Shown in pieces: positions 13,023 to 51,029 of a stretch of 64,000 nt of DNA. A program made the translations under genes and the position numbers. Below the pieces are notes generated by a model, which made no database searches, was not told the origin of the DNA, and was given only the letters and a program-made list of their open reading frames with translations. This DNA comes from Rhizoctonia solani (Eukaryota > Basidiomycota > Agaricomycetes > Cantharellales > Ceratobasidiaceae): assembly GCF_016906535.1 (NCBI RefSeq), contig NC_057385.1:3534001-3598000 (forward strand). The letters run 5' to 3'. Position 1 is the stretch's first letter. Every line of letters starts with the position of its first letter.

Positions 13023-13034
13023 AGAACTTGACCT
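13023..13034 (-). promoter_or_regulatory. Self-complementary primer binding site (Tf1-like)
   Basis: On the minus strand, two bases (TT) after the 5' LTR, AGGTCAAGTTCT is the exact reverse complement of AGAACTTGACCT inside the LTR (13,224 to 13,213). No tRNA-type TGG primer site is seen. This matches the layout of Tf1, in which the RNA 5' end primes reverse transcription. Confidence 0.7.
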
Positions 13035-13036
13035 AA

Positions 13037-13610
13037 TGTCAGAGTCTGACTAATGAAGAATGGGATAAATGCCTAAAGAGGCAGTGCTGGCTTTTGGGGA
13101 TAAGCAGAAGACTGCAACCAACACTTTAGATAGAGAGATTACTTGCCAAATATGGCACAAGACCCCTTAGAGTAGAGCAGGAGAGTGGGGAGGTAGTCAG
13201 TAGATTGACAGGAGGTCAAGTTCTGGTCTGAATGCCAGAACTCTCCCTTCATTATATACATCATACAGAACAAGGGAACTGTAAAGTACAAAGGAGAACA
13301 ATGGAAGACATACTACAAAGGTATGGGTAACTAAGAGAACAATAGAAGACATACTACAAAGGTATGGGTAACTAAGAGAACAATAGAACAATGCAACTAA
13401 GGACATATGGTAACTAAGTAACCAGAGGACAAAGCTAACAGGCTAAACAAAGGGACCATTCACATTCCATGTTGATTGCTCTGCCAGGGGAGTCCTGCAT
13501 GGCCTGTGGTCATGTTGGGAACATCCCCTGGTCCATATAATTCGTAAAATTTAGATAAAATGATAATAGAATATTAGGGTATCTGTGTCCATGCCTCTTG
13601 GGTCATGACA
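13037..13610 (-). repeat. 5' LTR of the chromovirus
   Basis: 574 bp. Read on the minus strand it has TATATAA (first T at 13,258). 34 nt further lies AGAACTTGACCT (13,224 to 13,213), the reverse complement of the tract just outside the LTR (13,034 to 13,023). Confidence 0.95.
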
Positions 13611-14763
13611 GCATGCCTTTGTTGAGCACCTTGCCATGATCAATGAATTGGTAACAATGGAACTGGCCAACTGTTGTCTGAACCTGGAGTTGATGGACCA
13701 TGCAAGAGGAAGGGTGGAGAGATGTACATGGGTTTATGGCAGTGGTGTTTGCATGTGATGTGAGGTAGCAGGTGTGCAGTGAGTGTGAGTTCATTGTTCT
13801 TGATTATATGTGCTGCCCCTCATGTGGCAATTCTTTTTCTTCTTCTTTTTTGAATAAATGCCCCCACATACACAGAAAGCATGAGAGCTACATTTCAATT
13901 AAGGCAAACTTCTTGTAGAAACCAAACCACAGAAATCTACAAGGAAAAACACAGAGAGGGAATCATGTAGACAGTACACACAAAGCACACAGAGACATGT
14001 GGCATGGGCAGAAAGAAGGAGCTGGCAAACCAACATACAGGTGGCTTAAAGGCTAACTTGAGTGGAGGCCATAAGTGTGGGGATGGGGCAGCCATGGTGG
14101 CAAATCTAGTCATAATTTGTGAAAGTAAATTTAGTGCATTTTGTTGAAGTGGGCAACTTCTGAAAAATGGACTAAATTTAGTCCATTCTTGCTTTGTTTG
14201 TGCTGGGCAACTTTTTGATGAGCACCAAACAAACAATGGACCAAATTTAGTCCATTTTTCAGAAGTTACCCACTTCAACAAAATGTGTTAAATTTACTTT
14301 ATTTCTCATTTTCTCCTCTCATACACTATATCTATCCTTGGAACTGCATTGCACAGGGTAATCCAACCCTCTCTTTCCATTTATGCTAGTCCTAACTTCC
14401 AAAAATGGAAGGTGCATGCTCTGTTGGGCTGTTAGTACATGAATTTGATTGATGTTTGCAAATTGAAATGATATGTATATGAATCAACGCTGAATCACGT
14501 GGTTTATTAGTAGAATATCATTTTCAGGGTTGCTTATCTAATAAATCCTTGCACATAACTGCAATTTAATGTGAAATATTAAAGACATGAATTTCAACAA
14601 ATGATTTTGAATTGCCATGATAAGTATGTAGATCAATGCGGAATCAAGTGGTCTACTAATAAAATTTCACTTTTGGGGCAGGTTATTTAGTGGGTTTGGG
14701 CGGAGAAATGTGATTTGATTTAAGGTTCTGCTCAACCCCTCCTTGAGCCAGACCCCCTATAAT
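13611..14763 (+). mobile_element. Element X, copy A, right part
   Basis: It continues the element after the insertion: the end of the ORF (stop at 13,756-13,758), a T-rich stretch, a palindromic MITE-like insertion (14,122-14,300) and two diverged direct repeats of about 150 bp (around 14,460-14,560 and 14,600-14,700) that share AATCA(A/C)G(C)(T/G)GAATCA. The right edge at about 14,763 (..GAGCCAGACCCCCTATAA) mirrors the left edge of copy B at 24,312 (TACTATAGGGGTCTGGCTC). Confidence 0.65.
14122..14300. repeat. Palindromic MITE-like element, long form
   Basis: A near-perfect inverted repeat with arms of about 70 bp (AAAGTAAATTTAGTGCATTT.. and its inverse ending at 14,300). The middle contains further palindromes (GGACTAAATTTAGTCC). 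The corresponding site in element X copy B has a 59-bp short form (24,777-24,835) with the same terminal repeats. Confidence 0.6.
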
Positions 14764-15654
14764 AAAGGGTTAAAAGAGGCAAGCTGGTAAAGCATCCCTA
14801 CAGGTACAAAAGTGCATACTTTGCTGTTCTGCACACTCTCACTGCCAAAACTTGCTTCAAATCTTTATTCTTGCACTCTGCTCCATCTCAACATGCCCAC
14901 TTTTCAATCAATTGATGCCCTGCCTTGAAATTACTGCATAGCCATTAACTTCTACATTCTCAGCAGACCAGAAGAGATGAAGGTGCATTTGGACAGTGCT
15001 GCCAACATCATACAAACACTAATGAGCACCAACAGCAGGAACAAGGTCAAATTCATCAAGTGCAACAACTACAAGCCCCACAAGTGGGGATTTATATATT
15101 GGCTTGATCCCAATGGTGCAGATGGAGCCAACTTCCTATATGAAAAAAGGGTAAATTACTGGTGGCATTTCATTGCCTCCTACTCTGGTGCTTTCAGGGA
15201 GTTTACATGGGTTTGCTACCCCTCCACCCACTGTCTCTGCGCTTCCCACAGCAAGGGAGCTCACTGAAGCAATGCAAAACCTAATTCTGCTCTATCCTTC
15301 CAACCCACCAGCTTACAGCACTGCTCCCAACTTGTCATTGACGCCTCCACCACACCCACACACTCTCAGGCCAACAGAAGAACATGTACCAGCTCCCCTC
15401 CCATTTCCACTTTTCTCCAGCATGCCAAACACTAACTGGACACCAGTTTATGTGTCTCCTGTGAGAGAGACGCATTGGGAGCCTCAGAACTACCTAGGAT
15501 GGAGCAATGAAGAAATAAGAAGGAATGCGGAGTCTTTTGAAAGCACTGGGGAAGGGAAAATGTTCACATTTGATGAACCGCTTGCAATTGATTACTCTTA
15601 ATGGATTCAAGCAGCTCTTTGTCACTGCCTAAAGACCTTTTTGAAGGGGGGCAT
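14764..15654 (+). pseudogene. 3' end of chromovirus family C: extra 3' ORF of unknown function
   Basis: The plus strand reads SIDALP, a TGA, then AINFYILSRPEEMKVHLDSA, KPHKWGFIYWLDPNGADGAN and, after a frameshift near 15,200, a Pro-rich part with ARELTEAMQNLILLYPSNPP and ending LAIDYS at 15,601. The same ORF occurs on the minus strand between the chromodomain and 3' LTR of the element at 17,575-21,185, so it is a third coding region of this family, downstream of pol. A purine tract (GAAGGGGGGCAT) precedes the LTR at 15,655. No domain is recognised. Confidence 0.55.
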
Positions 15655-16012
15655 TGTCATGAGCGTCTCCTGACATGTGTACTGGTTTGTTCACTCTCTT
15701 CCCCCCTGCCTGCATGTACTTAGAGAATCCACCTTCTACTTGATTAGTGTCCATCTGTTCTATTTGTATGTTTTCCTTCCTTGTTTGTGTCCTTCCCTCT
15801 TCTTTCCTCTTTCCTTGGACTTTGTCTGGACTTGTTCCATTCTAAGTGCTTCTATCTTGCTTATCTTGCTGCGCGCCGGTCCGGCTTACTGTATAGGGCC
15901 TCTTGACAATATGCTCCACCTTCCCTCTCATTTGTACAGACTGGACACCGCTTTTTCTATGTATTTACTGCTTTTCTATTTTGTTATGAAAGAAGACTGT
16001 GAATTGGCTTGG
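15655..16012 (+). mobile_element. Family C LTR, 3'-truncated
   Basis: It begins TGTCATGAGCG next to the purine tract of the preceding internal sequence, so it is that element's 3' LTR. It stops at ..GAATTGGCTTGG, about 80 bp short of the family end, where another LTR of the same family starts. Confidence 0.75.
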
Positions 16013-16443
16013 TGTCATGAGCCTCACCTCCTGACATGACTATGTATTACCTGCCACTTCCTTCCCCCCCCCCCCCAGTGCGTTTGTCTGGGGAACCCAT
16101 CTGTATCCATCCAATCTGGTGTACGGTTACTATCTTCCCTGTTTATGGTTTTCCCACTTCCTTCTTCTCTTCTTGCACTTAGTCTGGACTTATTCCGTTC
16201 TAAGTGCTTCTATCTTGCTTATCTTGCTGCGCACCGGCCTGGTTCACTGTGTAGAACTTCTAAGATATATGCTCCATCTTTTTTCTCAGTTGTATGGCCT
16301 GGACACTTCCCCTTCTCCTTGTATTTACCCTTTTCACTCTGTAATGAAAGAAGACTGGGAATTGCCTTGGAAACCCCAAGAACAATTTACCTTGAGAATT
16401 TCCCACTTTCTTCTAACAACAGTCATTTTATTCTTGGTTATGA
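16013..16443 (+). mobile_element. Family C LTR, nearly complete
   Basis: TGTCATGAGCCTCACC.. to ..TTCTTGGTTATGA, aligning with the solo LTR at 18,183-18,613. It is preceded and followed by CTTGG (16,008-16,012 and 16,444-16,448), which could be a target duplication if the last two bases of the LTR were lost. Confidence 0.7.
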
Positions 16444-16454
16444 CTTGGAACAAA

Positions 16455-16641
16455 CTTTGTCCAGACAGAGTGCAAGAAAGGGGCAGAGAAGTGGGAAGAG
16501 CACACACAAGGTAGGAAGGAAACAAACAAACAGATCAGATGGATACAGATGGGATGGGATGTACATGAGTTCCCCAGACACACGCACTAGGGGAGAAGGG
16601 AGCAACATAGAATACACAGGCACGTCAGGAGGCTCATGACA
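16455..16641 (-). mobile_element. Family C LTR fragment, inverted
   Basis: The 5' part of the family LTR in minus orientation, ending GGCTCATGACA at 16,641. Together with 16,013-16,443 it forms a head-to-head arrangement. Pol fragment sequence begins directly at 16,642. Confidence 0.7.
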
Positions 16642-17574
16642 AGTGGCCTATTCTGATTTGTGTCATCCTTAAACTTAGGTTCACAACTGTGGGCCATGGA
16701 TTTAGGCTCTGAGACAGCAACTGAGGTGGTGTTTAGGCTGCTTGACAGGGCGTCATGTCTCTGTGACTGTTTCCCAGGTCTGCAAACAATGGCAAAGTTG
16801 TAGTATGCCAGCAGATGCAAGTGCACATGATGCCTGTTGATTGTTTTGGCTGATTTCTGCTACTCCAGATTTTTGTAATCATTAAACAGAGTGATTGCCT
16901 AGCCAGTTCCTTCCAGGATTCTCCAATGCTCAAATGCGCAAATGCTGGCAAGTAGCTCCTTGTCATGTGTGTCTTAGTTCAGCCAAGCCGGTGAGAAGCT
17001 GGCTGAAATCAAATAAACAGGGTGTGAGCCACTATCTTCCTTTCTCCTAGATAGCACAGTGCCTGTGGTTGTTTCATAAGTGCCTGTTTCCAAGGTGTAA
17101 GGCTAAGGATCATCATGGTGAGAAAGAATAGGCTGCTTGCAAATTTCTGCCTTAATTGCATCAAATGCAGCCTTCTGTTCTTTTTTCCAGATCTATGATT
17201 ATTCCTTCTGAGTAAGATTGTTCAAGGGAAGTGCCAAGTGAGTGAAGCTAAGAACAAGGCAGCAATAGAGGTTTGCAAAACCAAATGATTGCTCTTATTT
17301 CACAATCTGGGGTCCAGGCCAGTCTATGATTGCTTGTACCTTGTCTTTCTCCACGGAGTTGCCATCAGTAGTAATCATGCGACCAATGTAGGTCACTTCT
17401 GCAACCAAGAAGTAGCATTTGGTAGGGTTGCAGAATAGACTAAGATTCAGCAAACAAGATAAGACATCCTTGATATGTTCCACATGCTCTTCTCTTGATT
17501 TATAGAATATCATAATATCCAAGTACACAACCACAGAGATATCAAGCAATTCATAGAGTATGTTGTTCATGAAG
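16642..17574 (-). pseudogene. RT and RNase H fragment of a Ty3/gypsy element
   Basis: Minus strand: NNILYELLDISVVVYLDI (17,570 downward) is the reverse transcriptase C-D region; the second Asp of YLDD is lost or shifted. It continues through the thumb (CNPTKCYFLVAEVTYIGRMI) to RNase H (about 16,980-16,750) and the end YNFAIVCRPGKQSQRHDALS. Several frameshifts and stops. Both ends are cut by family C LTR sequence (16,641 and 17,575). Confidence 0.8.
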
Positions 17575-18032
17575 TGTCACAACAAAGAATGAAATGACTG
17601 GTTGTGAGATATTGAGACAATTCACACGGATGAGAAAGTGGGAAATTGACAAGGTGAATTGTTCTTGGGGTTTCCAAGGCGATTCCCAGTCTTCTTTTAT
17701 AACAAAAGATGGAAGGGGGTAAATCCAAGGAGCAGGGACGGCGCCCAGGCCGCACAACTGGGAAGCAGGATAGAGCATATGGCTCAGAAGCTCTACACAG
17801 TGAACCGGGCCGGTGCGCAGCAAGATAAGCAAGATAGAAGCACTTAGAACGGAATAAGTCTAGACTAAGTGCAAGAAGAGAAGAAGGAAGTGGGAAAACC
17901 ATAAACAGGGAAGATAGGAACCGTACAAACAGATTGGATGGATACAGAGGGTTCCCCAGGTAAATGCACCAGGGGGGGGGGAAGGAAGTGACAGGCAATA
18001 CATGGTCATGTCAGGAGGTGAGGCTCATGACA
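17575..18032 (-). repeat. Family C 3' LTR
   Basis: 458 bp from TGTCACAAC to GCTCATGACA (plus-strand reading). It is followed on the element side by the tract TTGCCCCCCATC, the complement of a GATGGGGGGCAA polypurine tract. Confidence 0.85.
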
Positions 18033-19300
18033 TTGCCCCCCATCAAAAGCCCTTAGGCAGTGACAGAGGGCTGTTACAGCCATTCAGAACAATCAATAGC
18101 AAGTAGCTCCTCAAAGCTAAACAGCTCCTCATTCTCACTGCCTTCAAATGTTTCCACATTCCTTCTCATTTCCTCCTTGCTCTGTCATGAGCCTTACCTA
18201 CTGACATGACTATGTGTTGCCTGTCACTTCCTTCCTCCCCTCACTGCATAGGTCTGGGGAACTCATCTGTATCCATCTAATCTGTGTGTACAGTTCTTCC
18301 CTCTTCCTTGTTCCCTTCTTGCATTTAGTCCGGACTTATTCCGCTCTAAGTGCTTCTATCTCGCTTATCTTGCTGCGCACCGGCCCGGTTCACTGTGTAG
18401 AGCTTCTGAGCCATATGCCCCATCTTGCTTTCAATGTGCGGCCTGGACAACGTCCCTCTCCTTGTATTTACCCTTTTTTTTTCTTTTTGTTATAAAGAAG
18501 ACTGTGAATTGGCTTGGAAACCCCAAGAACAATTCACCTTGTCAATTTCCCACTCTCTACTCTGTGAATTGTCTCAATATCTCACAGCAGTCATTTCATT
18601 CTTGGTTGTGACATGTTCCATCCTGGGTAGCTCTGAGGCTCCCATTGCGTTTCCCTCATTTGAGACAAGTCACCTGGGGTCCAGTGAGTGTCTGGCGTGC
18701 TGGGGAACAAGGGGAACGGCAAGGGTGCTGGTGCATGCGCCTCTGTTGGCCTGGGAGTGTCTGGGCATGCTGGAGGGCTCACTGGCATTGCCGGCCTGCT
18801 TGTGTTGGCTGGTGGGTCTGCTGGGTAAAGCAGAATGAGGTTCTGCATTCCCTAGGTCAGCTCCCTCGCAGATGGAGGTGTGGAGACTGTGGGGGTGGAG
18901 TAGCAAACCCATGGCAATGCCATTGTGCCAGATCCTTGAAAGCACCTGGATGGGAGGCAATGAAGTGCTACCAGCAATATACTCGCTTTCCATACAGTGT
19001 GACTGGTCCTTGTTCTCCCCTGGGGTTGAGCCAATAGAGGAATCCCCACTTGGGGTGCTTGTACACGTTGCGCTTGAAGAACCTGACCTTGTTGTGGCTG
19101 CTGGCGCTCATCAGAGCAAGAATGATGTTAGCAGAGCTGTCTAGGTGTGATCTCATTTCTTCTGGGCTGTTCATGATGTAGCAATTGATGTTGAGGCAAG
19201 GGTTGTAGGCTAAGGCGTCAATAGAGCTGAAGATGGGCACGCTGGGATAGTGGGGAGCGCAAGAAGAACTTAGCAGGGCAATTTCTAGCAGTGAGAGCTT
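18033..19300 (-). pseudogene. Extra 3' ORF of family C, split by a solo LTR
   Basis: Minus strand after the chromodomain: FSSIDALAYNPCLNINCYI, NSPEEMRSHLDSSANII, KHPKWGFLYWLNPRG, then a Pro-rich segment (ARELTQGMQNLILLYPADPP) and WEPQSYPGWN at 18,614. Here a plus-strand LTR interrupts it; on the far side (18,182 to about 18,075) it resumes with KEEMRRNVETFEGSENEELF and ends LAIDCSEWL. At least one frameshift lies near 18,900. It shares its whole length with the plus-strand copy at 14,764-15,654. It is unlike standard chromovirus proteins and no known domain is recognised. Confidence 0.6.
18183..18613 (+). mobile_element. Solo LTR of family C inserted in the family's own 3' ORF
   Basis: 431 bp, TGTCATGAGCC to GGTTGTGACA, with flanks TGCTC (18,178-18,182) and TGTTC (18,614-18,618), a target duplication with one transition. 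It has TATAAA (18,491-18,496) followed 34 nt later by AAGAACAATTCACC (18,525-18,538). It is opposite in orientation to the element it interrupts. Confidence 0.88.
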
Positions 19301-20540
19301 GTAAAGTGACAAAGCGGGCAGTTTTTGATTTGCTGAGTTGCTTGACTATCTTGCCCTTTCTAACTTTGCGTGCATTTGCAGGGATGGGACTATTGGCGGC
19401 TGGGGCATCTGGATAATTAGCAAAGAAGTCGCGCAATTTGTCCTTGCAATGCTGTAGATCCTTGGTTGGTTCCCATGTGTACTTATGGGGCGCATATCCC
19501 TTCCATCTGACCCTGTACTTCCAGACCCTGTCTTCTGCTGCCCAATCTACAAATTTGTCTACTTCATACTCTTCTTCTCCTTCTGTTGTGATCACAGGCG
19601 GGAGAGGAGTGAATGTGCAATCAAACTCTGTGTCCTGTTTGAAAGCAGACAATAAGCTGACATGGAACACATCAAGGATTTGTTGTTTGGCTCATTCATC
19701 AGTAATAGGCAATCCTGTGGGTTCCAGGAGCGGTGAAATGACAGGAGAACAGCCATACACAATCTCAAAAGGCGATTTGCCTGTTGCTTAGTCTGGCATT
19801 GTTGTGAGCAAATGCAGCCAGTGGAAGCCAGTAAACACAATGAGACCGTCTAGGATTAATGAAGGGACGTAGGTAAGCCTCTAGCCATTGGTTCTTGATA
19901 CCAGTTTGCCCATCAGATTGTGAGTGATAAGCAGTAGAGAAACTAGGAGTGATCTGCAGAGATTTGTAGAGTGCCTTGAGGAACTTGGAGTTGAATGTAG
20001 TCCCTCTGTCAGACACAGTGCGCTTCAAGTGCCATGTAGCTTCCAGACATGTTCCAGGAACATCTGAGCTACATCCTCAGCAGCGGCAGTTTCCTGACAG
20101 GGAGTCAAGTGCATCATTTTTGTGAAGCAGTCCACAACCACCAGAATGCTGTCATATCCCTTACATTTGGGAAACTTGACAATGGAATCATATGAGATGT
20201 CTTCCCAAGGACCTGCAGGGACAGAAAGCCGGTTGAGAGCAAAGTTGTGCACATGGCCCTTGCTTCTTTGGCAGATTTCACAAGTCTCCACATAGCAATT
20301 GACTTGGAATTTCATTGCTGGCCAGTAGTAGTCACAACTGATTAACTCTAGAGTCTGTGCTACTCCTTGGTGACCAGAAGCAGGGGAACCATGGAAGGAT
20401 AAGAGCTGCTGTTTGATCTGTTCATCTGGCACAACTATTCTTCCTTGATACAGAAGTAGACCCTTCTGAATTGTATAGCCATTGACGATTCCCGTGATCC
20501 GGCATCTGCCAAAGCATCCGATGCAAACTACACGCAATCT
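19300..20540 (-). pseudogene. Integrase and chromodomain of family C, broken
   Basis: Minus strand from 20,540: zinc finger with FHGSPASGHQG..CETCEICQRSK; core with DSILVVVDCFTKMMHL (Asp), VSDRGTTFNSKFL (Asp) and TAYHSQSDGQTGIKNQ, where the third acidic residue of DDE appears replaced (GQTGIK in place of GQTER or GQTEV). A frameshift region follows at 19,680-19,790, then a C-terminal part and a chromodomain (YRVRWKGYAPHKYTWEP, about 19,470-19,520), and a basic tail. It is cut off upstream of the zinc finger. Confidence 0.85.
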
Positions 20541-20718
20541 GAGAGGTGTAAAGAGGTAAAAGAGTTCAGGTCTTTTGGAATCAATGTGAGAGTAGCCTAG
20601 TTGGCGGTGTGCAATAACCTAGTGCGCTTTGTGGCAAGGGAAAAGAGAACTGTAGGAAGTAAAGGTAGGGATGAGGACCTGAGTGATGTCCAGGTTGATA
20701 GATTGGCTACAGCCTGGA

Positions 20719-20732
20719 AAGAACAATGTCAC
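20719..20732 (-). promoter_or_regulatory. Family C self-complementary primer binding site
   Basis: Two bases inside the 5' LTR edge, the minus strand reads GTGACATTGTTCTT. The LTR tract 34 nt after its TATA box (AAGAACAATTCAC, plus-strand 20,823 to 20,811) pairs with all of it except one bulged C. Confidence 0.6.
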
Positions 20733-20734
20733 TA

Positions 20735-21185
20735 TGTCACAACCAAGAGTGAAATGACTGCTGTGAGATATTGAGACAATTCACAGAGGAGAGAGTGGGA
20801 AATCAGCAAGGTGAATTGTTCTTGGGTTTCCAAGCCAATTCACAGTCTTCTTTTATAACAAATGATGAAAGGGGGTAAATAAATGGAGAATGGACAGTGT
20901 CCAGGCCGCACAAGTTGGAAGCAAGATAGAGCATATGGCTCAGAAGCTTTACACATTGAACCGGGCTGGTGCGTAGCAAGATAAGCAAGATGGAAGCACT
21001 TAGAATGGAATAAGTCGAGACTAAGTGCAAGAAGAGAACAAGGAAGAGGGAAGAACATAAACAGGGAAGATAGGAACTGTACACACAGATTAGGATACAG
21101 ATGAGTCCCCCAGGCAAATGCACTGGGGGGGGGGAAGGAAGTGGCAGGCAATACATAGTCATGTCAGGAGGTGAGGCTCATGACA
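20735..21185 (-). repeat. Family C 5' LTR
   Basis: 451 bp, alignable with 17,575-18,032. On the minus strand TATAAAA begins at 20,857 and the primer-complementary tract at 20,823. Confidence 0.85.
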
Positions 21186-21906
21186 TTTTTTTGCAATTTT
21201 GATTTTAAGTATGCCAAAAATAAATATGATACATGCATACCAAATCTACAAAAATACAAAAGAATTCTCCTTAAAATCAATGCTGGACAAAAATCCACAT
21301 TAGTGTAATGCATATAACTTAAATTTCTCCAGGTTTCAGCACAATATGGGCATGGAGAGTGGTTAGAAAGAAAGCCAATGAAAACAAATGTTGAATATGT
21401 ACCTTTGTCAGGGATACAACCATTGATACTATGGGATTCCATGTCACTTCTGTGTATACGTGCCTCTTAGTAGCCCTTGATATCCAACTATGCATTTGGG
21501 TCCAGATAATGAGTTGTATGCAAAGAGGCTCAGGACATGGAAGCTGCCAGCTGCACTATACCACTTGTATATCACAGTTCTGTGTAAAACAGTCCATGCA
21601 AAGACTTTGATTCTAAAATTATAATCAAGGTAGATCATGTTTATGCTTGCCAATTGATTTTGTGTGTTTGAACCAATACACACACACAGCTGTATTGTGT
21701 CCAAGTTTCTTTGGCACAATATTACAGTGTTATGAAAAAAAGATTCAAAATTCAACCAACCAAAATAGCTAAACATATATGTCAGACAAAATATGTACAT
21801 CAAAATGGCTTAGAGTGCATTGCCCTGTTGATTCCAGATGGCACCTAGGCACAGTTGATTAGACACAACAAACAAACAAGTGAGTGCATAGATACCCTTC
21901 ACCAAG
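21186..21906. other. No gene recognised
   Basis: AT-rich unique-looking sequence beginning with a T run. Frames of about 90-120 codons on the minus strand have no domain features and no second copy in the window. Confidence 0.5.
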
Positions 21907-29059: not shown

Positions 29060-31150
29060 AAGCATCAGCCCTTCTACAAAAAGTTGCGTACTTTACACAC
29101 AGCAATACCACCATCCCAAGTTAGGGTGAGTCATGTGACAACTGACCACCCATGCCACACAGAATTGCGTACAACATGCAGAAGCATAGCACCATGGCCA
29201 ATGTTAGGGTGAATCACATGACCACCCACCACTCCACTCATGCATAGTTGCATACTTGGTATGGAACTATACTGCATGCAATATGTTAGGGTGAATCACG
29301 TGACCACCTACCACTCTACTCATGCAGAGTTGCGTACTTGGTATGCAACTATACCACCCACAGTTACATTAGGGTGAGTCACATGACCACCCACCACTCT
29401 ACTCATGCAGAGTTGCGTACCAAGTACGCAACTATACCACCCACAGTCATGTTAGGGTGAGTCACATGACCACCCACCACTCTACTAATGCAGAGTTGCG
29501 TACTTGGTACGCAACCATACCACCCACAGTCATGTTAGGGTGAGTCACATGACCACCACCACTCTACTCATGCAGAGTTGCGTACAAGTACGCAACCATA
29601 CCACCCACAGTTATATTAGGGTGAATCACATGACCACCCACCACTCTACTCATGCAGAGTTGCGTACCAAGTACGCAACCATACCACCCATAGTCATGTT
29701 AGGTGAGTCACATGACCATCCACCGCTCTACTCATGCAGAGTTGCGTACTTGGTACGCAACTATACCACCCACAGTTACATTAGGGTGAGTCACATGACC
29801 ACCCACCACTCTACTCATGCAGAGTTGCGTACCAAGTACGCAACCATACCACCCATAGTCATGTCAGGGTGAGTCACATGACCATCCACACTCTACTCAT
29901 GCAGAGTTGCGTACTTGGTACGCAACCATACCACCCACAGTTACATTAGGGTGAGTCACATGACCACCCACCACTCTACTCATGCAGAGTTGCGTACCAA
30001 GTACGCAACCATACCACCCACAGTATATTAGGGTGATCACATGACCACCCACCACTCTACTCATGCAGAGTTGCGTACCAAGTACGCAACCATACCACCC
30101 ATAGTCATGTAGGGTGAGTCACATGACCACCCACCACTCTACTCATGCAGAGTTGCGTACCAAGTACGCAACATACCACCCATAGTCATGTAGGGTGAGT
30201 CACATGACCATCCACCACTCTACTCATGCAGAGTTGCGTACCAAGTACGCAACCATACCACCCACAGTTACATTAGGGTGAGTCACATGACCACCCACCA
30301 CTCTACTCATGCAGAGCATACTTGGTATGCAACCATACCACCCACAGTCATGTTAGGGTGAGTCACATGACCATCCACCACTCTACTCATGCAGAGTTGC
30401 GTACTTGGTACACAACCATACCACCCACAGTTACATTAGGGTGAGTCACATGACCACCCACCACTCTACTCAGGCAGAGTTGCACACAATGTACACTACC
30501 ACACCTACCACGCCACATAAACATGATAATGTAACAACATAATAAAATCTTAAAATAATTTAGCACATATTCCATAGTCAGGGTGAACATACTATAAGCT
30601 TCACTCCTCACTCAATACTGTGTACAGTGCATGCAACTATACCAATCACCTCTAGGTTAGAGTGAGTTGCATAATCACTTACTACCCCTCTTACTCATAG
30701 TTGCGTACAATGTACACTATCATACCACCCTCTGTAGAACTATGGTAAGTCACATGACTATATACACCCTGCCAACCCAAAGTTGTATAAAACAACAAGA
30801 ACAACAACAACAATAACAATAACAATAACAATAAAACATCATTTACACAACCATTCCCACCACACCATGTAACAGCAATAAGAACATAAAAGCATAATAA
30901 CATGATCAAAGAATGTAACAGAATATACCATGTACCAATAAGCTAGAGAGTATCAACTTACAGGTATCATCCCTCTCAAACAAAGCTGCATACATTGTAT
31001 GCAACTATATCACTTGCCTCAAAGTAAGGGTGAGTCACATGACCACCTACCATCCCACCCATACAGAGCTGCATGCATTGTATGCTATCATACCACCCAT
31101 TATAAAGTAGGACTCAAATGACCACTTGCCACCCCTCCCACACAGAGTTG
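29060..31150 (+). repeat. Satellite array, about 84-bp unit, about 17 good plus 5 degenerate units
   Basis: Each unit reads roughly TTAGGGTGAGTCACATGACC, then ACCCACCACTCTACTCATGC, then a dyad with core GCGTACCARGTACGC (or its inverse), then CCATACCACCCACAGT. Units starting at TTAGGGTGA run from about 29,113 to 30,445 at about 83-84 bp spacing. Central units are almost identical; the first two and those after 30,490 are diverged (GCATACTTGGTATG, for example), as in classical satellites. An open frame across 29,504-29,872 exists only because of the repetition and is not taken as a gene. Confidence 0.95.
30788..30836 (+). repeat. AAC/AAT microsatellite
   Basis: AACAACAAG followed by runs of AAC and AATAAC within the degenerate right part of the satellite. 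Confidence 0.85.
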
Positions 31151-36028: not shown

Positions 36029-36903
36029 GCAAGGTGGAAGACAAGAATGTGGAATGAGCGTGGTCTATGTGGGGATCAAGCAGGTTAAAAACTTAATGTA
36101 CTATGACCATGGTGTAGCTGTGTAAAATTGACTGTTCAGTATCCAGCTCTCCTGCAAGTTGACAGGCCTTTTTACAAGTAAGATAACCATTCAAGCAAAG
36201 TCCATTGTGCTCCTTCTTGTAAATCCAACCATAGAGCTGATGCTCTAGTTTTAGTAGAGTTCCAGATCAATAGCATCAGGAAATTGGATAACACCTTGCA
36301 ACACCATGTAGTTATTATCTATATTGCGTTGATTATGAGGTGTTTGGCAGTTGTGCATGCCTTCTCAAGGGTGGCTGATACTATGTGTACATTCTGTCAG
36401 GGCTATAAGAGTTTGACAGACCTATAGAAGGTTTGACATGGCATTAATTGGCTACCAAGGTATAGATGCACAATGTCCACCATGCCACAGTACAATGTAG
36501 ATTCCAGGCTATCATGTAAGGGAATAGAATGTTACTACTGTTATGTACATATGACATGCTAGAAACAAATGCTTATTCAATAGTCATACTGTACAGGTCC
36601 CATATCTTCTTCACTTTTGAATCCCTCACTCTCCCAATCCTGTTCAGATGGTTCATCTCCCAAAACATCCTCTTCTAATTCAATTTTGACAGTTTTTTTG
36701 TTTGTAGCATTGCTCACAGGTTTTAAGGTGACTTAGGATGCATCCTAACACATCCTAGGTGACTTACATAAGCCACAAGTGCATAAGATTCCCCCTTTCC
36801 TCATCACACAGGTGACTGAACTTACATGAGACTTGACTTAGATGGTTGGATATACTGGGTTAGGAAGTTAATTCAACCACTTGTGTTTGAGCAGAAGTTT
36901 CCA
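36029..36903. other. No gene recognised
   Basis: Low-CpG sequence with no repeat partner found. A local dyad GTGACTTAGGATGCATCCTA lies near 36,729-36,748. Confidence 0.5.
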
Positions 36904-41880: not shown

Positions 41881-42052
41881 TCGGGTCAAAGATTTATGCT
41901 CAGATTCCATACTTGGAGCAGACATGAGCCTTCCAAGTAAGTTTTGTGTTTGGAATCAATCAGAGTATTGATTTGCAAGACCTTGTTGCACGAAAAAAAT
42001 GGAGAGACTACAAAGACTAAGCCATTGGCAACCAACATGGGTAAGCGCCAGA

Positions 42053-42245: not shown

Positions 42246-42519
42246 GGGGAACGGATGGTGTTGGTAAGCATGAATTATCGGGCTACTAGAGTGCCGATGG
42301 GCCTGTCGACGACTGGGACTCTAGTAAAACCCTCGTCCAGTCTCGTGTATACGTTAAATCTGTACTACGTGCTCAAATACAACGATATCATCTCCCTAAA
42401 CACACTGGTTCGCTTACAACACTCTGCATTTGCGGTGATAATTTGTGAAGGATGGGCCCGGTGTCGGTATGTGAATCAATAGATTGTCTAAACTATTTGC
42501 CTTTTAAACACTTGAAAAT

Positions 42520-45500
42520 ATTAGGAAAATGGGCCTTGTGATCCTCGATGCACGGTTCATACTCAAGAAGCAATAGTTTCTCGTCGTACACGTCGGCGAT
42601 GCATTGATCGAATTGACAGTTTGCATTGGCGGCAGGCGGCGCACGAACAAGACGTAGCTCTTGGCTTCTGACCTAGCACTTCTGTATCAGCGGATCCGGT
42701 GCCTCCTTCTCTCAATGCCTCAACTCTGAAAGATGATCTGGATATTGACCTCGAACCGCCGCCACCTCAAAACCATCACGACGACGATGATACAACTCTG
42801 CCAACCTGGGGTCTGCCTAATCACGAAGCATTCGACTATGGCGCGTTGAATCAAGAATCCTTCCAGAGTGACCTAGAGCTTGACGATAACAGTGACTTCG
42901 GAGTTGAGACTGCCCCCCAGACCCCAATATACGATCCTGAAATGGATTGGGCTTCTGACTTGGGCTACACGTCTGGTGAAGCAGCCGATATCGAGACAGA
43001 CACGGATTCGCACCCGGAACTTGATGACCTGCTCCCTATATCTCCAGCAAACTCTCAAGCGGCCTTGCCCACCGTTGGGCTGAATATAGATCAGATAGGA
43101 AACAATCTTGAAGACGAGGCGCCTCAGGTGAGTAATATCTCCTAGGTGGGTATGCTGCATGTTGGTCTGATATTCTACAGGTCCCGCTTACCCCTGACGC
43201 TCCAAATTTGGAGTTGAATGAAGAAACAGCACAAGAGCCCAACATTGACACTCCGATGGATCGCAGCGAGTTACCTGATGGGCTGCGTGTATTCAAAGAT
43301 CTGTTACTCAAATTTTCGAGCGACGGTAACCTAACAGTTACGGCTGCAGAAGCTTTCCTGAAAACAATCAATATGTGTCTGGAGAAAGGCCTATTACAAT
43401 GTGGCTCTGAGTCGAACCCAGGTGAGTTCCGTATGATTTCGTGACCAACATATTGCTCAATCACTACAACTACAGCGCATCGACTACCAATGACGTTGGA
43501 GACACTACAGCGACATGCCGGCGATCCTCCCGACATTATGAATGTCTACGCTGTATGTCCGGATTTCAGCTGCCAGGTCCTTAGAGTACTATTGACAATG
43601 GAGTTGGACAAACCACACACATGCGTCAAATGTAAAAAACTAATCACTCGACAGAAGACAATTCGGCACCGTGGTTCACGTAAAGTCACCTATTGCTACA
43701 CGCCAATCCTACAATATGCATTTGGCTCTGTGAAGCGTCAGTTGAAGTCAATACTTGAACGTCCTGGAATCTTGGAAGCTATCAATAAGCACCGGGAATA
43801 CCTTAGGAGAGAAGGCAAACCAGACGACGTACTCAAAGATATTCAAGATGGTGAGCTCTGGCGGAACTTTCAGAAGGGTGATACCAAGTTTTTCGAAAAC
43901 CCTCACAACATCGGACTCATTTTGATGTGCGACGGGTATGTACATATATCTTGTTCCCAGATTCTGCGGATGATCTTCATGGCTGTATAGCTTCTCACCT
44001 GCTACACGGCAGGGTGCCGCGTCGTACTCCATGGGTGCTATCAGCATGTGCATAGCTAACCTTCCACCTGATCTTCGGTACGTACACCCCAATTTGTTTG
44101 GACAATGTTGTCTAACTTTGTTTCCTGTTCAGAAACCGGCCAGAAAACAAAATTCTTGTTGGGGTAACACCTGGCCCACATGAGCCAAATGTCAACACAA
44201 TAAATAACTTCTTGAAGCCAATGGTTTCTGAGTTACTTGAACTCTGGAAGGAGGGTATGTCTATAACTCATCCTGGTATGTGGCACCTGCAATATACCTT
44301 TCGATTTGCAGCGCTGATAGCAAGGTTTTATAGACGGAACACTGGAAGTGGTCTTTGCTGCTCTAGTTGCATGTGCTTGCAATACGCCTGCCGCACGGAA
44401 GGTTGGTGGGTTTCCTGGCACAGGTGCTTGATATCCATGTACTGCGTGCTGGTGCTTGCATAAGGAGTTCAATAGATACAACAAAAGTAAGCTATTTCCT
44501 ATTTTTGAGCCAACAACATTGCTCACCCTGCATAGAGTTTCCGCGTAGATCCAGAAAGGAGCATAAATGCGCATCCAAGGCATACAAACTGCTGCCTAAT
44601 AAAACGCAGAAAGAAAACTTCATATCTGCAGATTTCCAGAAGGACAAGCCTGGTGGCTACCGGTACAGTGTGTGTTGCTATTACCATACTGGGATCCTTC
44701 CACTATGGTTATAGTTGACCCTATGCACTGTTTATTCCTGGGTGAGCTTAAAACGTTTTTGTATGACTCAAACTGATAGATTTGTATGCCATTAGGCCTT
44801 GTAGATTTTCAGTTTCATAAGATATGGGTGGAAATGGATCACTTACAACAGGGAAAAGAGTTAAAGGAGCTTCAGAACATGATTGATTTGGCAAGTGTTT
44901 TGCTTATTGTTGCTTGGTTCTTTTACTCAGTATTACTCATACAGACAATACAACCCAGACACTGTGGGCAACTGCCAGTTGGTATTGGAACAAGTTCAGC
45001 CGGATCCTTGACTTCCAATCCTCTCCAAAGTCTGGCAACAATTGACCTTCCAATAGCAGTATGTTTCTATTGTACATTATATTTCTACTCTCATTTGCCC
45101 ACTAGATTCCTATTCTATGGGATAAAGTTGATATCAGCAGTGTAGAGCAGCAAACACACAAGGCATGGGCAAAACTCAAAGAAGCAGAGGAAAAGAAGAA
45201 AGCCAAGCTGAGAAAAGGTGACAAAGTGACTTGTAACGCTGCAAAAGCCCAGCAGCAGGCCTTAACAAACACCAATCCAACTACACACCCTCAAAAACAA
45301 CAACATACCACTCAAGTTGGTAATCAGTCTGGTGATAGCAACTCAGATCTACCTTTGGATGCTTGTGATGTTGCTAATTTGGAACAAACCAAGGAGGTTG
45401 ATGCTGAGCAACGCGGGTTTATTTCTTGGAGGTTGCAGGACGCAGACAGAATACTTCTTCTATTGACAGCTATCAAACATTTATGCTCTTGCACAGTCAG

Positions 45501-45909
45501 GCGTGAGTCAATCAAGATTGGCAAAGAGAGGTTGATTAAGTACTTAGCACAAACAGCCAAGGTAGGGCAAAAATATCTTCTACTCTATTTGTTGATACGC
45601 TTACAGCAATATTTTAATAGCTGCATGGTGTTGAGCAAATGCGCCCAAACCATCATGGCAGCTCTCATCTCCCTGAGCAGATTGTAAGATACGGCCCAAT
45701 GTCACAAATTTGGACATACTCTGGTGAGCACCTCAACTACAACCTCAAAAATACAAGCAGCAATTGGCACGGTGGTGGCAAACATGAGATAACCTTTGCC
45801 ACAGTTTTCCATCAATGCTTTGGCTGCATTACTTGGGCAAGTCATTATTTATTACCAGTATTTTGACCTACTATTTACTTTGATGAGATAGCTATCAAAT
45901 ATTGCCAAC
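42520..45909 (+). pseudogene. Plavaka/Tnp2-like (CACTA-type) transposase, 5' part
   Basis: A possible first exon (about 42,520-42,666) is followed by an acidic exon (42,680-43,125), then exons 43,181-43,420 and 43,476-43,936 separated by GT..AG introns of about 55 bp. It carries a CxxC (CVKCKK), GELWRNFQKGDTKFFENPHN, NRPENKILVGVTPGPHEPN and LKPMVSELLELWKEG (44,133-44,256). Next come VFAALVACACNTPAARKVGG with a TGA in GTGA*YPCTAC (about 44,445), VIVDPMHCLFLGLVDF (the conserved DPMHNLxLG box), IPILWDKVD, and RPNHHGSSHLPEQIVRYGPM with WTYSGEHLNYNLKN. This order is diagnostic of basidiomycete Plavaka transposases. It is cut at 45,909 by a retrotransposon and resumes at 58,406. Confidence 0.88.
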
Positions 45910-46470
45910 TGTTACAACCTCCTTACCTATACCATTAGAATTGCCTGAATTTTCTATTATTTTTACTATTTTTTACGGACTCTATATCTTTTGTTTTTCA
46001 ATCACGTGATCTCAGCGCTTACAATGCCAAGATGCTGCGCTGAGATGCCATGCCAAGGGCGCTTAGGAGAAATCCACGCTTCTGCGCAGCCCGCAGCACG
46101 CTTCTCATTTCATACATGTACTTCCTTTCTCACAAGCACAGACCATGTAGATAGTGTGCTCTCTTCTATAAATACAGCAGGAAAATTGCTTGGACACCCC
46201 AAGTTGATTTTACCTTGTCTCATTCCATTGAGGAGGACAACCCCCAGCCAGCTAAGTAGCCGGCCCTCAGTAGTTTAGCAGTTAACCCCCCTCAGCTCAC
46301 TCACCACACCTCCCAGGCTAAGCCCCCTCCGTCAGCAGTAGAAGTTTGTAGAGTGCCTTACGCACCATTAGTATAGCCTTAGTATAGATTAGATAAGCAG
46401 TGTCCTGTAGTAGTATGGCCCCAAGCGCCCAACCCACTAGCGTGTACCCACCTTACAGTGGAGTACAACA
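45910..46470 (+). repeat. Outer element 5' LTR
   Basis: 561 bp. TATAAA at 46,167-46,172; GTTGATTTTAC at 46,203-46,213, 36 nt on, pairs with the primer site at 46,473-46,483. TCACGTGA is present near 46,003. Confidence 0.95.
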
Positions 46471-46472
46471 TT

Positions 46473-46483
46473 GTAAAATTGAC
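46473..46483 (+). promoter_or_regulatory. Self-complementary primer binding site, outer element
   Basis: GTAAAATTGAC, 2 nt after the LTR, pairs over 11 nt (two G-U pairs) with GTTGATTTTAC at the predicted RNA 5' end (46,203-46,213). Confidence 0.65.
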
Positions 46484-46988
46484 TTTTTGTAGGCTTGTTC
46501 AACAAGGAGAGGACCCCCTGTACTAGCACAAGGGAAAACACGTGATCTGGGCTACTTTGCGGGGTAGAATAATCAAAAACCCCCCACCCACATGTAGTAC
46601 CAAATTGCTATAAGGCAGACGGGCTCTAATCCCCTGCATACCATGTGTTTTGCCAGAACACAGTAGTTAGCAACCTTAGTCAGCTGAAACACCCGCTTGT
46701 AGAAAACCTGCTCATATCACAATTGCCAGATCTGTTGATTTGTTGTAGGGACTATCCAACGCTAGGTGCTTGACGCAAAGGTTTAGCGCCCACACACTAC
46801 ACAAAAACTGCCCATAAGTCCTGATATAGGCATCACTCCCCCACGCTGTCTTCACCATTCCATCCACACGCTCTGGCGTCCCTCACCCCTACTCCCGTCC
46901 TCCCAGCCGCTCCAGCCAACGTTCCATTCCAGCCCGCTCCCAACCACCCTCTTGCAGCACATCTCCCACTTTGCAAGACTTGTCAAGG

Positions 46989-48174
46989 ATGGAACCGGAG
47001 CCGTCCATTACCACTCTCCTCAAGGCTATCACAGCCCTCACCACCACAGTTGGGTCCTTGCAGGACCAAATCAAATCACAAGGCCAGCAGCTTGTTGAGC
47101 TCAGGGCCATATGCAAGGAAACGGCCAACCTCCTTGGCAATAAGGATCAGGGAGGACAAACCCAGCCTGGCCCATTGACTGGGCCTGTCACCCCTCCTAC
47201 CCACATGGGAGGGGAAGCCCACACTCCAGGCACGGTTAGGCCTGGACTCAAGGACCCCTTCCAACCAACGCAGGGAACAAGGTTTGACTCCAAAGAAGAG
47301 GAGGAGCCAAGGAGGCCCAAAAAAGAGCCTTGGGGAACGCCTAGGAGCCTAAGCTCCCTCACCCTGTTTGACTCTGGGTTGTCTGTAAAACAACCCAAGA
47401 TGGAATTGCTGGACCCTTATAAGGGTGATACCAGGGGAAGAAAGGCCACCCAATGGCTCAACTGAATGCTTCTCTGGGTTGCCCTTCACAGGGATCAGTT
47501 CAACAAGGAAGAGCAGATGGTTGTGTGGATCCTGTACCACATGACAGACAAAGCCGCCAACTGGGCACTTCCCCTTATTGGGGCTATTATCAAGGGCAAG
47601 GGCAACCCTCCAACACCATCCCAGCCTTAATGGCCAAATTCAAAGAGGCCTTTGCCAACCCTGATGCCAAATGGGCTGCTGCCAGGAAAATTGCTGTGCT
47701 GACTCAGAAAACCACCATGTCTGAGTATGTCACAGAATTCTGCAACCTCATGGCGGAACTCAACTGGAACACAGAGGCGTACATTGCCCAATTCACGCGC
47801 GGCCTCCATTGGAAAGTCAAAGAACTCCTGTCCACCAAGGACAATGTCCCCAACAATGATCTTGAGGCCATATTTGCAGCCTTGATCAAGATTGATAACA
47901 CCCGTTGGGAGAACAAGGAGAACTGCCCAAAAAAGGCTCCCACTAAGGCCCCAGTCACCACAACCACCTCCTCATCCACCACTACCACCAGGGTCTGTCT
48001 ATCTGAGGATCCCAATTACATTACCCTGGAGGAAAGGGACTGCTGCTGCGCCTCTGGCCTATGTGTCAAATGCGGACAGAAGGGCCATGGCATCAAACAG
48101 TGCCCCAATGGTTGGAAGGCAACAATCAAAGAAATGGCCAAGGTGGCAGAGGATACTGAGTCAGGAAAAGATTG
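46989..48174 (+). pseudogene. Outer element gag, with in-frame TGA and a frameshift
   Basis: ATG at 46,989 (MEPEPSITTLLKAITALTTT) starts a coiled N-terminal part, then a Pro/Gly linker. A TGA at 47,463-47,465, immediately followed by ATG, breaks the capsid after QWLN at the same codon as in the inner element. The capsid resumes MLLWVALHRDQFN, shifts frame near 47,610, and continues AYIAQFTRGLHWKVKELLS to a CCHC knuckle (CVKCGQKGHGIKQC, about 48,060-48,105) and the stop after SGKD at 48,172-48,174. The heptamer at the frameshift position is AGGAAAA, weaker than in the inner copy. Confidence 0.85.
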
Positions 48175-50455
48175 AGGCCAAGGACTACCGTCAAGCCCCT
48201 GGCCAAATTAGATGTGCATGTATTGGATTGTGAATTTGTATCTGTGGCTCTAGATTTGAATAAAAAGCCCCTCTTATTCATTGATTTACAACTGCACAAC
48301 TTCCCAACAGAAAAATTAAAAACCTTAGTGGACTCAGGAGCCACATCCAACTTCATCTCCCCCTTGATTGTTGAAAAACTTAAAATCCCAAAAACCCAGC
48401 TTGAAAATCCACAAGTTGTGAGAATGTTAGATGGTACCCTATCCCAGACTGGTTGTATATGGCACCAGGTTCAACTTGCGGTCTTGGCCAATGGCCATCC
48501 ACACACTATCCCCTTCTTAGTTTGTCCCATTGGAAATACACCAGCAATTTTAGGCATGACGTGGCTAACAGCAGAGGCTCCCCTCATTGATTGGCAACAG
48601 GGACTAGTTACCTTCCCTGAAAATACAAATTGCCTCCAAAGAAGAAGCCAATCCCAATCCCTTGGCAGACCTCCCCACACAATACCATGAATTTGCCAAA
48701 GTCTTTGGCAAAGAAGAATTCAAGGTTCTGCCCCCCCATAGGGAATATGACATAGCCATAGATCTCCTACCAGATGCCAAGCTCCCCTGGCCCCATTTAC
48801 GGCATGACAGACGCAGAATCCAAAGCCCTGAAACAACACATTGATGAAGAACTAGCAATGGGCAAGATCCGCCCCAGCACTTCATCAGCAGGCGCCCCAG
48901 TCATGTTTGTAAAGAAGGCAGATGGTTCCCTTAGGCTGGTTGTAGATTATTGGAAGCTCAACAACGTGACCCATAAAAACGTTTACCCCTTACCACGGCA
49001 AAACAACCTCATGGCCAAACTAAGGCAGGCAAAGATGTTCACAAAACTGGACCTCTGATGGGGATATAATAACATCTGGATCAAGGAAGGTGACAAATGG
49101 AAGACAGCCTTCCGCACCAAATATGGGTTATTCAAATACCTAGTCATGCCGTTTGGTCTCACAAACGCCCCTGCAGCATTCCAACATTTTATGAATGACC
49201 TGTTTAGAGACCTGATTGACGTAACAGTGGTAATTTTACCTACACAACATCCTCATCTTCTCAGAAAAACCAGAAGAACATCTGCTCCACGTCAGAGAAG
49301 TCTTATCTAGGTTAATGAAGAACCAGTTGTTCTGCAAACTGTTGAAGTGTCACTTCCACATAACAACAGTAGACTATCTATGAATTGTCATCTCTCCAGC
49401 AGGGTTCTCAATGGACCAGAAAAAGATCAAAGCTGTCACCTTGTGGCCAACCCCAAGGACCATCAAACAGGTGCAGGCCTTCTTAGGCTTTGTTAACTAC
49501 CTCCGGCGGTTCATTCCCAATTTCAGCTCTGTGGCACAACCCCTCCATAACCTCACCAAAAAGGAAACCCCTTGGTCATGGGGCAATCCAGAGGAAGCTG
49601 TGTTTCAGGAATTGAAGTCCCTTGTCACCAAATCACCAGTTCTTGTCCACTCCAACCCAGATCTCCCCTACTACCTAGAAACTGACGCATCAGGGGTAGC
49701 CATGGGAGCTATCCTGAGCCAACAAGGGGAGGACAATTGTCTCCACCCAGTTGCTTACATGTCAAAGTCCTTCTCAGGCGCTGAAGCCAACTATGACACG
49801 CACAATAAAGAGCTACTAGCTATTATCAAGGCACTGGAGGAATGGCGCATCTTCTTGGAAGCAACAGAAAGACCAATACAAGTGTTCACTGACCATTGGA
49901 ACTTGGAATACTGGATGCAGGCACAGACCTTCAACCAAAGACACGCACAATGGCAAGTTTTCCTGAGTGATTTCAACTTTGAAATTCACTATTGCCCAGG
50001 GAAGCAGTCAGGGAAGCCAGATGCCTTGTCCAGGAGATTGGATTATATAAATCTCCCCACAGAACTGGAAGTCATGTTACAGCCAGAAGTCTTTGCCAAT
50101 ACTTCAGAGGAAGAAGTAGAGATTGTCACAGAAATCCGCTCTAAGCTCAGGGAAGATCCATCCCTAGAGCCCATCATCCAATTCCTCACAGAAGATGTAG
50201 ATAACGCGCCCCCCTCCATTTGGAAAGCCTATTGGGATTATGATTGGGAAGAGGACCTTCTATGGTACCGTGGGAAACTGGTGGTACCAGACTCAGAGCC
50301 CCTTAAGGAACAACTACTAAGAGAATTCCACAACGCCCCACTGGCGGGTCACCCAGGACAACAAAGGACACTTGAACTGATCAGCAGGTCCTACTGGTGG
50401 CCTGGCATGAAGTCCTCAGCAAAAGAATGGGTTGAATGCTGTCCTGTATGCCAAG
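48172..50455 (+). pseudogene. Outer element pol, 5' part (PR-RT-RH-IN zinc finger)
   Basis: Protease (LVDSGATSNFISP, about 48,327); RT with [19 protein letters not shown] and a TGA after FTKLDL (CGA to TGA, about 49,057); the YLDD region is frameshifted (about 49,235). RNase H (YYLETDASGVAMGAILSQ, VFTDHWNLEY) and the integrase HHCC finger follow (FHNAPLAGHPGQQ..CCPVCQ). It is cut at 50,455 by the inner element, whose CCAAG duplication lies in the codons after the second Cys of the finger. Several Arg codons have become Trp or stop. Confidence 0.88.
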
Positions 50456-51016
50456 TGTTATAAACTCCTAAACTATACCATTGGAATCTCCTCTTTTTTC
50501 TAATATTTTTACTATTTTTTACGGACTCAATATCTTTGTTTTTTCAGTCACGTGATCTCAGCGCTTACCATGCCGAGATGCTGCGCCGAGATGCTGTGCC
50601 AAGGGCGCTTAGGAGAAATCCACGCTTCTGCGCAGCCCGCAGCACGCTTCCCATTTGTCACTTATACTTCTTTCTCTCACGCGCACAGACCATGTAGATA
50701 GTATGCTTTGCTTATATATACAACAGGAAAATTGCTTGGAAACCCCAAGTTGATTTTACCTTGTCTCTTATTCATTAGAGAAGGTACCCAGCCAGCTAAG
50801 TAGCCGGCCCCCAGTAGTATCAGAAGTGCTCACCCCTTACTTCACTCACCACACCTCCCAGGCCTAAGGCCCCCTTGTCATCAGTGATTAGTTGAGGACC
50901 GCCTTAAGCGGTAGTAGTATAGCCTATTGAGATAGATTACATAAGTTGCTTGTATTAGTACGGCCTTAAGCGCCTGCTCTCATCAGCGTGTACCCACCTT
51001 ACAGTGGTGTATGACA
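50456..51016 (+). repeat. Inner element 5' LTR
   Basis: TATATATA at 50,713-50,720; GTTGATTTTAC at 50,749-50,759 (36 nt on) is complementary to 51,019-51,029. Confidence 0.96.
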
Positions 51017-51018
51017 TT

Positions 51019-51029
51019 GTAAAATTGAC
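51019..51029 (+). promoter_or_regulatory. Self-complementary primer binding site, inner element
   Basis: GTAAAATTGAC, 11 nt, pairs with LTR 50,749-50,759 including two G-U pairs; the LTR tract is where transcription should begin relative to the TATA box. Confidence 0.68.

Follow-up and report, generated by a model that had tools for sequence, protein, structure and literature searches.

The Ty3/gypsy retrotransposons in a 64,000-nt stretch of the Rhizoctonia solani genome (contig 16, positions 3534001–3598000; hereafter, the window) carry, downstream of the TATA box in each long terminal repeat (LTR), a short tract that pairs with the element's own primer-binding site (PBS). Across the whole genome that was searched (40.7 Mb, 16 contigs), seven LTR families share this layout, with tract and PBS matched family by family. 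Taken as a whole, these results point to Ty3/gypsy elements of the Tf1/sushi type that bear a chromodomain, are self-primed, and have a putatively guarded primer tract, a reading to which a probability of roughly 0.87 can be assigned. Judged from the sequences, priming by the element's own RNA is very probable, and a hairpin that encloses the primer tract at the U3/R boundary is highly likely to be a real, conserved feature. The further proposal, based on predicted folding energies, that this hairpin acts as a guard, discouraging use of the tract's 3′ copy as a primer, is tentative. Self-priming itself is an already known trait of Tf1/sushi elements and is not new, whereas the U3/R hairpin with an arm imitating the PBS possibly is.

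Primer tracts and primer-binding sites in the window

Counted from the first T of the TATA box, every primer tract in the window starts at +34, and 12–13 nt of each pair with the PBS. Element A (7062–13610, minus strand) is bounded by LTRs at 7062–7636 (3′) and 13037–13610 (5′). Its primer tract, AGAACTTGACCT, occupies 13213–13224 on the minus strand, with the predicted RNA 5′ end at 13224 and the first T of TATATAA at 13258 (+34 nt), and its PBS, AGGTCAAGTTCT, lies on the same strand at 13023–13034, 2 nt beyond the 5′ LTR, which is the arrangement that a preliminary description of this DNA had given. In the family C copy (17575–21185, minus strand), the 5′ LTR spans 20735–21185; the tract AAGAACAATTCAC (20811–20823, minus strand) is found 34 nt after TATAAAA, and the PBS GTGACATTGTTCTT (20719–20732, minus strand) again lies 2 nt beyond the LTR. 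The position of this pair thus agrees with the preliminary description, while the bulge noted there comes from a single base by which the window copy differs rather than from a family trait: its PBS has one extra base relative to those of loci L039 and L042, two C relatives with an ungapped 13-bp pairing of tract and PBS.

Elements D (45910–58405, plus strand; LTRs at 45910–46470 and 57845–58405) and E (50456–56705, plus strand; LTRs at 50456–51016 and 56145–56705) share the plus-strand tract AAGTTGATTTTAC, located at 46201–46213 in D (TATA at 46167) and at 50747–50759 in E (TATA at 50713). Their PBS, GTAAAATTGACTT, lies on the plus strand at 46473–46485 in D, at the 5′ LTR end, and at 51019–51031 in E, 2 nt beyond the LTR; the core tracts are GTTGATTTTAC at 46203 and 50749 and GTAAAATTGAC at 46473 and 51019. 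For these elements the pairing and the 2-nt spacing described earlier hold and a tract start at +36 does not, as the duplex AAGTTGATTTTAC:GTAAAATTGACTT comprises 13 bp, including two G·U pairs, and starts at TATA+34. Because D and E belong to a single family (approximately 80% identical) and E lies inside D, they are not independent cases. One more match to GTAAAATTGAC, at window position 36122, was discarded as chance, with no LTR end adjoining it. Two nucleotides between LTR and PBS are usual for LTR elements, so the spacer by itself is weak evidence for self-priming.

Covariation of tract and primer-binding site across families

The genome-wide sample consisted of sequence pieces taken at the 5′ LTR ends of relatives, together with family A LTR loci. 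The seven LTR families recovered use six different tracts, or seven when a variant of the D/E family is counted. Family A pairs the R-region tract AGAACTTGACCT with the PBS AGGTCAAGTTCT, and family A′ combines this tract with a different LTR (e.g., L188; L185 is a CpG-changed copy). The corresponding R and PBS sequences are AAGAACAATTCAC and GTGAATTGTTCTT in family C, AAGTCGATTTTAC and GTAAAATCGACTT in D/E, AAGTCGTTTTTAC and GTAAAAACGACTT in the D/E variant L084, ATCGCTTGCAA and TTGCAAGCGAT in family F (single copy L041; pairing over 11 nt), AAGACTTGACCT and AGGTCAAGTCTT in family G, and AGGTCGATTACCT and AGGTAATCGACCT in family H. A matrix test comprised A′, C, D/E, the D/E variant, F, G, and H; in it, the best partner of every R tract was its own PBS, and the true assignment ranked top among all 5,040 permutations (1/5,040); with the D/E variant left out, it was still the best (1/720). 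The permutation matrix therefore shows that tract and PBS covary across families, which the preliminary description had proposed as a check. In the variant L084 (R CGTTTTTAC, PBS GTAAAAACGAC, U3 arm AAAAACG), all three sites depart jointly from the family sequence, and R and U3 arm are identical between its two LTRs.

A pattern search with family templates extended the layout to individual copies, with families rather than copies being the independent units. At the 69 places where both R and PBS could be read, pairing was fully Watson-Crick in 33, departed from it by G·U pairs only in 14, and contained one mismatch in 19 and two or more in 3 (L034, L044, and L047). All but one of the 19 single mismatches fall at a CpG site, the remaining one being L189, an apparent recombinant. 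A box was recognized in 134 of the 137 matches, and in 131 of these the tract follows it by 33–35 nt; the tract begins C|A in 137/137, relative to a background of 0.087. Both regularities lend indirect support to an RNA start at the tract. In the D/E sampling, both tracts were found in 39 of 40 pieces. The pattern search missed known copies, including window elements D and E as well as L031, L048, and L104; three pieces were excluded as duplicates or overlaps (L001, L002, and L101), and L011 was dropped for a false PBS. No pair was recorded in pieces including L033, L045, L049, L090, L099, L100, L103, L105–L108, L110, L183, and L186, whose placement relied on fixed offsets and in which the 5′ LTR may be missing.

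Chance matches set the scale for these pairs. A free search around any TATA box returns many matches of 8–10 pairs, of which those away from LTR ends were discarded. With the same geometry and a score of at least 11, the free search scored in 11/40 pieces on the expected strand, 3/40 on the other strand, and 2/200 Markov resamples; the opposite strand may hold real LTRs, given that L094, L101, and L105 match LTR pieces there. Since this control also scores, a single pair by itself is not decisive, and it is the family-by-family match that decides.

Predicted hairpin around the primer tract and predicted leader fold

For representatives of each of the seven families, the segment from TATA+4 to +50 is consistently predicted to fold into a hairpin whose 3′ arm is the primer tract and whose 5′ arm, located between the TATA box and the predicted start site, resembles the PBS; the preliminary description, although correct on the pairing layout, did not include this structure. 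The hairpin core of element A, AGTTCTGG ... CCAGAACT, spans 13219–13242 (minus strand; z = −3.9), and that of the C copy, GTGAATTG ... CAATTCAC with an inner CTTGG/CCAAG stem, spans 20811–20843 (minus strand; z = −4.6). On the plus strand, the hairpin region of D covers 46180–46214 (z = −2.9), and the hairpin of E, GGAAAATTGCTTGG...CCAAGTTGATTTTACC, covers 50726–50760 (z = −3.9). Among the families, the arms are GTTCTGAG/CTCAGAAC in A′, AAATCG/CGATTT with the inner CTTGG/CCAAG stem in D/E, GCAAGC/GCTTGC in F, AGGTCAAGT/ACTTGACCT in G, and CGACC/GGTCG, the shortest of all, in H. The nine representatives have z scores of −3.5 to −5.5 and rank 1–6 among the 223–401 windows of their LTR fragments, and scores below −2 were obtained for 73 of the 79 distinct sequences examined.

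The two copies of the tract in one RNA differ in predicted accessibility. Opening the tract would cost 1.0–5.3 kcal/mol at the RNA 5′ end versus 5.2–10.4 kcal/mol in the 3′ LTR, the latter being higher in 9/9 representatives. Shuffling the 30 upstream nucleotides lowers the mean 3′ LTR opening cost in all nine, yet it stays above the 5′ value; in family C, shuffling removes only 1.5 of the 4.2 kcal/mol difference.

The RNA 5′ end was folded from an assumed start at the tract to 60 nt past the PBS start, using a program without pseudoknots. The tract is placed on the PBS in 9/9 representative folds, with a mean pair probability of 0.88–0.98, and in 7/9 a second short duplex joins the LTR end (GACA or TGAC) to TGTC or GTCA following the tract.

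Related loci outside this genome

A profile built from nine reverse transcriptase (RT) sequences retrieved 30 related loci (L191–L220) in records named as prokaryote genomes; these are eukaryote-type gypsy elements in contigs filed as bacteria or archaea, evidently through binning errors. A search for relatives in viral contigs found none. Six outside loci (L191, L192, L195, L196, L198, and L217) have a self pair of 11–12 bp at an ACA end, located at TATA+31 to +33, none of these LTR ends being confirmed by a second full copy. The hairpin, which was not part of the search criterion, is present in five of the six (12–15 bp, four-base loop, z of −4.8 to −7.7). These six loci amount to three tract groups, two of them with the hairpin. 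L196, compared with L192, shows a matched change at U3 arm, tract, and PBS. Frog and fungal proteins are among the named ones closest to L192. Several candidates were put aside: L202, in which a 181-nt repeat was taken as the LTR and a self match of just 9 bp was seen by eye at approximately TATA+44, was not counted, and matches scoring at least 10 in L193, L197, L199, L201, L205, L216, and L218 lay in coding or A+T-rich sequence or at non-ACA ends.

Structure of the window elements

Element A is a Ty3/gypsy chromovirus with LTRs of 574–575 nt that are 99.8% identical and is flanked on both sides by the target duplication GCATG. The C copy is short and interrupted: approximately 2.7 kb separates its 5′ LTR from a second LTR in the same direction (17575–18032) and encloses a C-type LTR on the other strand (18183–18614), and no matching target duplication was seen at the ends of 17575–21185. 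C-type LTR pieces on both strands cluster at 15750–18614 (16013–16411, 18183–18614, and others). D is flanked by CCAAC and is interrupted by E, which has its own CCAAG duplication; the nesting of E (50456–56705) in a copy of its own family (45910–58405) gives their relative age order. The pol frame of E (52457–56131, plus strand) matches protease, RT, RNase H, an integrase zinc finger, rve (under the cut-off), SH3_Tf2-1, and a chromodomain. Matches to the chromodomain that Tf1/sushi elements carry at the integrase C-terminus, and to SH3_Tf2-1, occur in frames of A, D, and E, the RNase H domain is found in both D and E, and a gag match is also present in E. Elsewhere in the window, positions 29082–31099 hold a tandem array with a unit of approximately 82–83 nt.

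Discussion

By analogy with Tf1, the RNA of these elements would start at the tract and fold its 5′ end back onto the PBS, the element's own RNase H would cut the paired 5′ end to free a 3′ end, and this end would prime minus-strand DNA synthesis, which would cross the 2-nt spacer and enter U5. The U3 arm would be missing from the RNA 5′ end and kept in the 3′ LTR; there, the hairpin could shut the 3′ primer copy while the 5′ copy stays free, thereby favoring priming at the right end and sparing the template 3′ end. The preliminary description had proposed the same mechanism as in Tf1, and both the covariation between families and the negative outcome of the tRNA comparison support this. More broadly, and again tentatively, it can be suggested that self-primed elements face two identical primer tracts per RNA, a problem that tRNA-primed elements lack, that a promoter-adjacent mimic of the PBS locks the 3′ copy, and that lock, primer, and PBS may evolve in concert, also beyond this species.

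Conventional priming, in which the PBS would serve a tRNA or tRNA fragment and its match to the LTR would be incidental, is very improbable. The preliminary description had named a better-fitting tRNA 3′ end as one of the observations that would speak against self-priming; among the 40 R. solani tRNA genes compared (out of 61 matches, with initiator Met probably absent), 3′ ends match the PBS over only 4–6 nt, the same as shuffled PBS, whereas the self tract matches over 11–14 nt, or over 7 nt with additional G·U pairs in window element E. Runs anywhere inside these tRNAs reach 5–8 nt, with 8 for one D/E copy, and remain within the shuffled maximum. TGG, which would pair with CCA, is not found at the start of any PBS, and the sites vary by family, following the LTR tract. 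The copia elements of the same genome provided a control, for which six elements were chosen from 58 matches for their long frames (approximately five independent cases in the set L221–L232, as L223 and L227 are near-identical copies). Their PBS is constant, GGTTATGAGCC.. in 6/6, which we take to be a typical half initiator-Met tRNA site; initiator Met is probably missing from the tRNA sample because none of the 40 genes holds the CTCATAA of this copia site. The copia PBS matches its own LTR over at most 6 nt in the six elements, giving no self tract, and no hairpin was found after the nine copia TATA boxes tested (z of −1.7 to 0.5). A constant PBS in copia and an LTR-matched PBS in gypsy therefore represent two different PBS patterns within one host. 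It is also improbable, if somewhat less so, that 5′ end and PBS do pair, but for the sake of RNA folding, packaging, or translation, with another primer in use: pairing alone does not prove priming, and the predicted fold encloses the entire 5′ leader, but the location of the pairing at the PBS, along with the 2-nt spacer and the precedent of Tf1 described in PMC7175516 and PMC10085805, makes priming the simplest account.

The function of the hairpin is a separate matter. The U3/R inverted repeat could, about as plausibly, be a promoter element acting at the DNA level, or an aid to first-strand transfer, instead of a guard; its fixed place between the TATA box and the predicted start makes a core-promoter function plausible, while its sequence varies by family with pairing to the tract preserved, which would be unusual for a protein site, and the six copia copies examined lack it. 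The U3 arm may also be a by-product, kept complementary to the tract without selection if RT corrects near-palindromes through template switching. This explanation, which is unlikely, would account for the joint changes in L084 and L196 without invoking function, but it leaves unexplained both the origin of near-palindromes at matching positions in families whose tracts differ and the absence of the hairpin in L198.

Several observations weigh against self-priming with a guarded tract. The D/E tracts do not covary at CpG. Variable positions in this family are CpG at three sites (U3 arm, R, and PBS), read as CG, TG, or CA, and the R/PBS classes among 45 copies are CG/CG (12), CA/CG (9), CG/TG (8), CG/CA (5), TG/TG (3), CA/TG (3), TG/CA (2), CA/CA (1), and variant (2), so that a mismatched class is the commonest after CG/CG; by inspection of the counts, without a test statistic, matched classes beyond CG/CG do not stand out. 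When 20 D/E copies were picked, mainly for departing from CG/CG, both LTRs were readable in 19, and R was unlike between the two LTRs in 7 of these (L053, L060, L062, L069, L071, L078, and L086). The plain reading is that imperfect D/E pairs reflect CpG decay, partly after insertion. Two further copies join one family's tract to another's PBS: L044 has H-type U3/R with a D/E PBS and L189 a G-type LTR part with an A′ PBS, and from their sequences both look like recombinants. The z score fails to fall below −2 in 4/14 H, 1/42 D/E, and 1/7 C sequences, and shuffled U3 attains the observed opening cost in 0–10 of 100 trials. Moreover, the 3′ copy would still pair with the PBS, at a net −3.3 to −10.4 kcal/mol versus −6.7 to −16.8 kcal/mol for the 5′ copy. 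The representatives folded were mostly picked for good pairing, and their pseudoknot-free folds lack one duplex of the three that make up the Tf1 fold. Because the self pair was the criterion by which the six outside loci were selected, these are no test of pairing; five of them (L192, L195, L196, L198, and L217) share one record set, L192, L195, and L217 share one tract, of which L196 has a variant, and L198 self-pairs without a hairpin (z = −0.3).

Confidence in the guard, the hairpin, and the lock is tempered accordingly by the poor independence of the outside loci and by the partial closure of the 3′ copy, from which it follows that the hairpin would bias the choice of end without excluding the wrong one. 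If the primer served to re-template the PBS, exact complements would be expected everywhere, a pattern not evident in the D/E table. Separately, the CG/TG/CA variation in L051–L089 and L111–L130, together with the differing LTRs within copies, suggests methylation-linked mutation.

For the self-priming reading, a single genome with several families of matched primer and PBS pairs represents a natural mutagenesis experiment, in a field where the work in the papers cited below, as far as their available text goes, rests mainly on Tf1 of fission yeast. If the hairpin is a lock, it would explain how priming from, and cutting of, the wrong RNA end are avoided. The combined signature of TATA box, hairpin, tract at approximately +34, and PBS could be used as a search pattern, making RNA start sites predictable from sequence.

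Comparison with known systems

Self-priming is established for Tf1/sushi elements (PMC4600332, PMC2864245, PMC10085805, PMC6317226, PMC3601003, and PMC7175516, each cited for its available text) and is described as a common feature of this group (PMC10085805). In Tf1 and Tf2 of Schizosaccharomyces pombe, the first 11 RNA bases are complementary to the PBS, and the primer is released when RNase H cleaves at the junction of bases 11 and 12 (PMC7175516 and PMC10085805). The R. solani elements resemble Tf1/Tf2 in being chromodomain Ty3/gypsy elements with a 5′ tract complementary to the PBS and an SH3_Tf2-1 domain, and among the relatives listed (at least 120) many are named Tf2 by their sources, with fish, frog, and ascomycete proteins matching at 46–52%. 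The available Tf1 text (PMC7175516 and PMC10085805) does not mention a U3 hairpin, Tf1 being compared here by description rather than by sequence. A literature search, whose scope excluded subscription papers and three of the original Tf1 papers, found no description of a U3 hairpin with a PBS-like arm, and its absence from print is not claimed. Two duplexes of the "pretzel" leader described for Tf1/sushi in the available part of PMC10085805 resemble duplexes in the folds predicted here, the self-primer:PBS duplex in 9/9 folds and the second duplex in 7/9, the third not being seen in folds from a program that excludes pseudoknots. The copia elements of R. solani, also LTR elements, differ from its gypsy families in having a constant PBS, no self tract, and no hairpin.

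The Tcn1 elements offer a second comparison. In the available texts, self-priming is predicted for plant Tcn1, in most moss and club-moss elements (PMC6317226), neither tRNA priming nor self-priming was found for SM-Tcn1 of Selaginella (PMC2864245), and self-priming was proposed for Tcn1 of the basidiomycete Cryptococcus (PMC7175516). The R. solani elements share with Tcn1 the putative self-priming and with Cryptococcus Tcn1 a basidiomycete host; they differ from Tf1/Tf2 in that several families with different tracts coexist in one genome.

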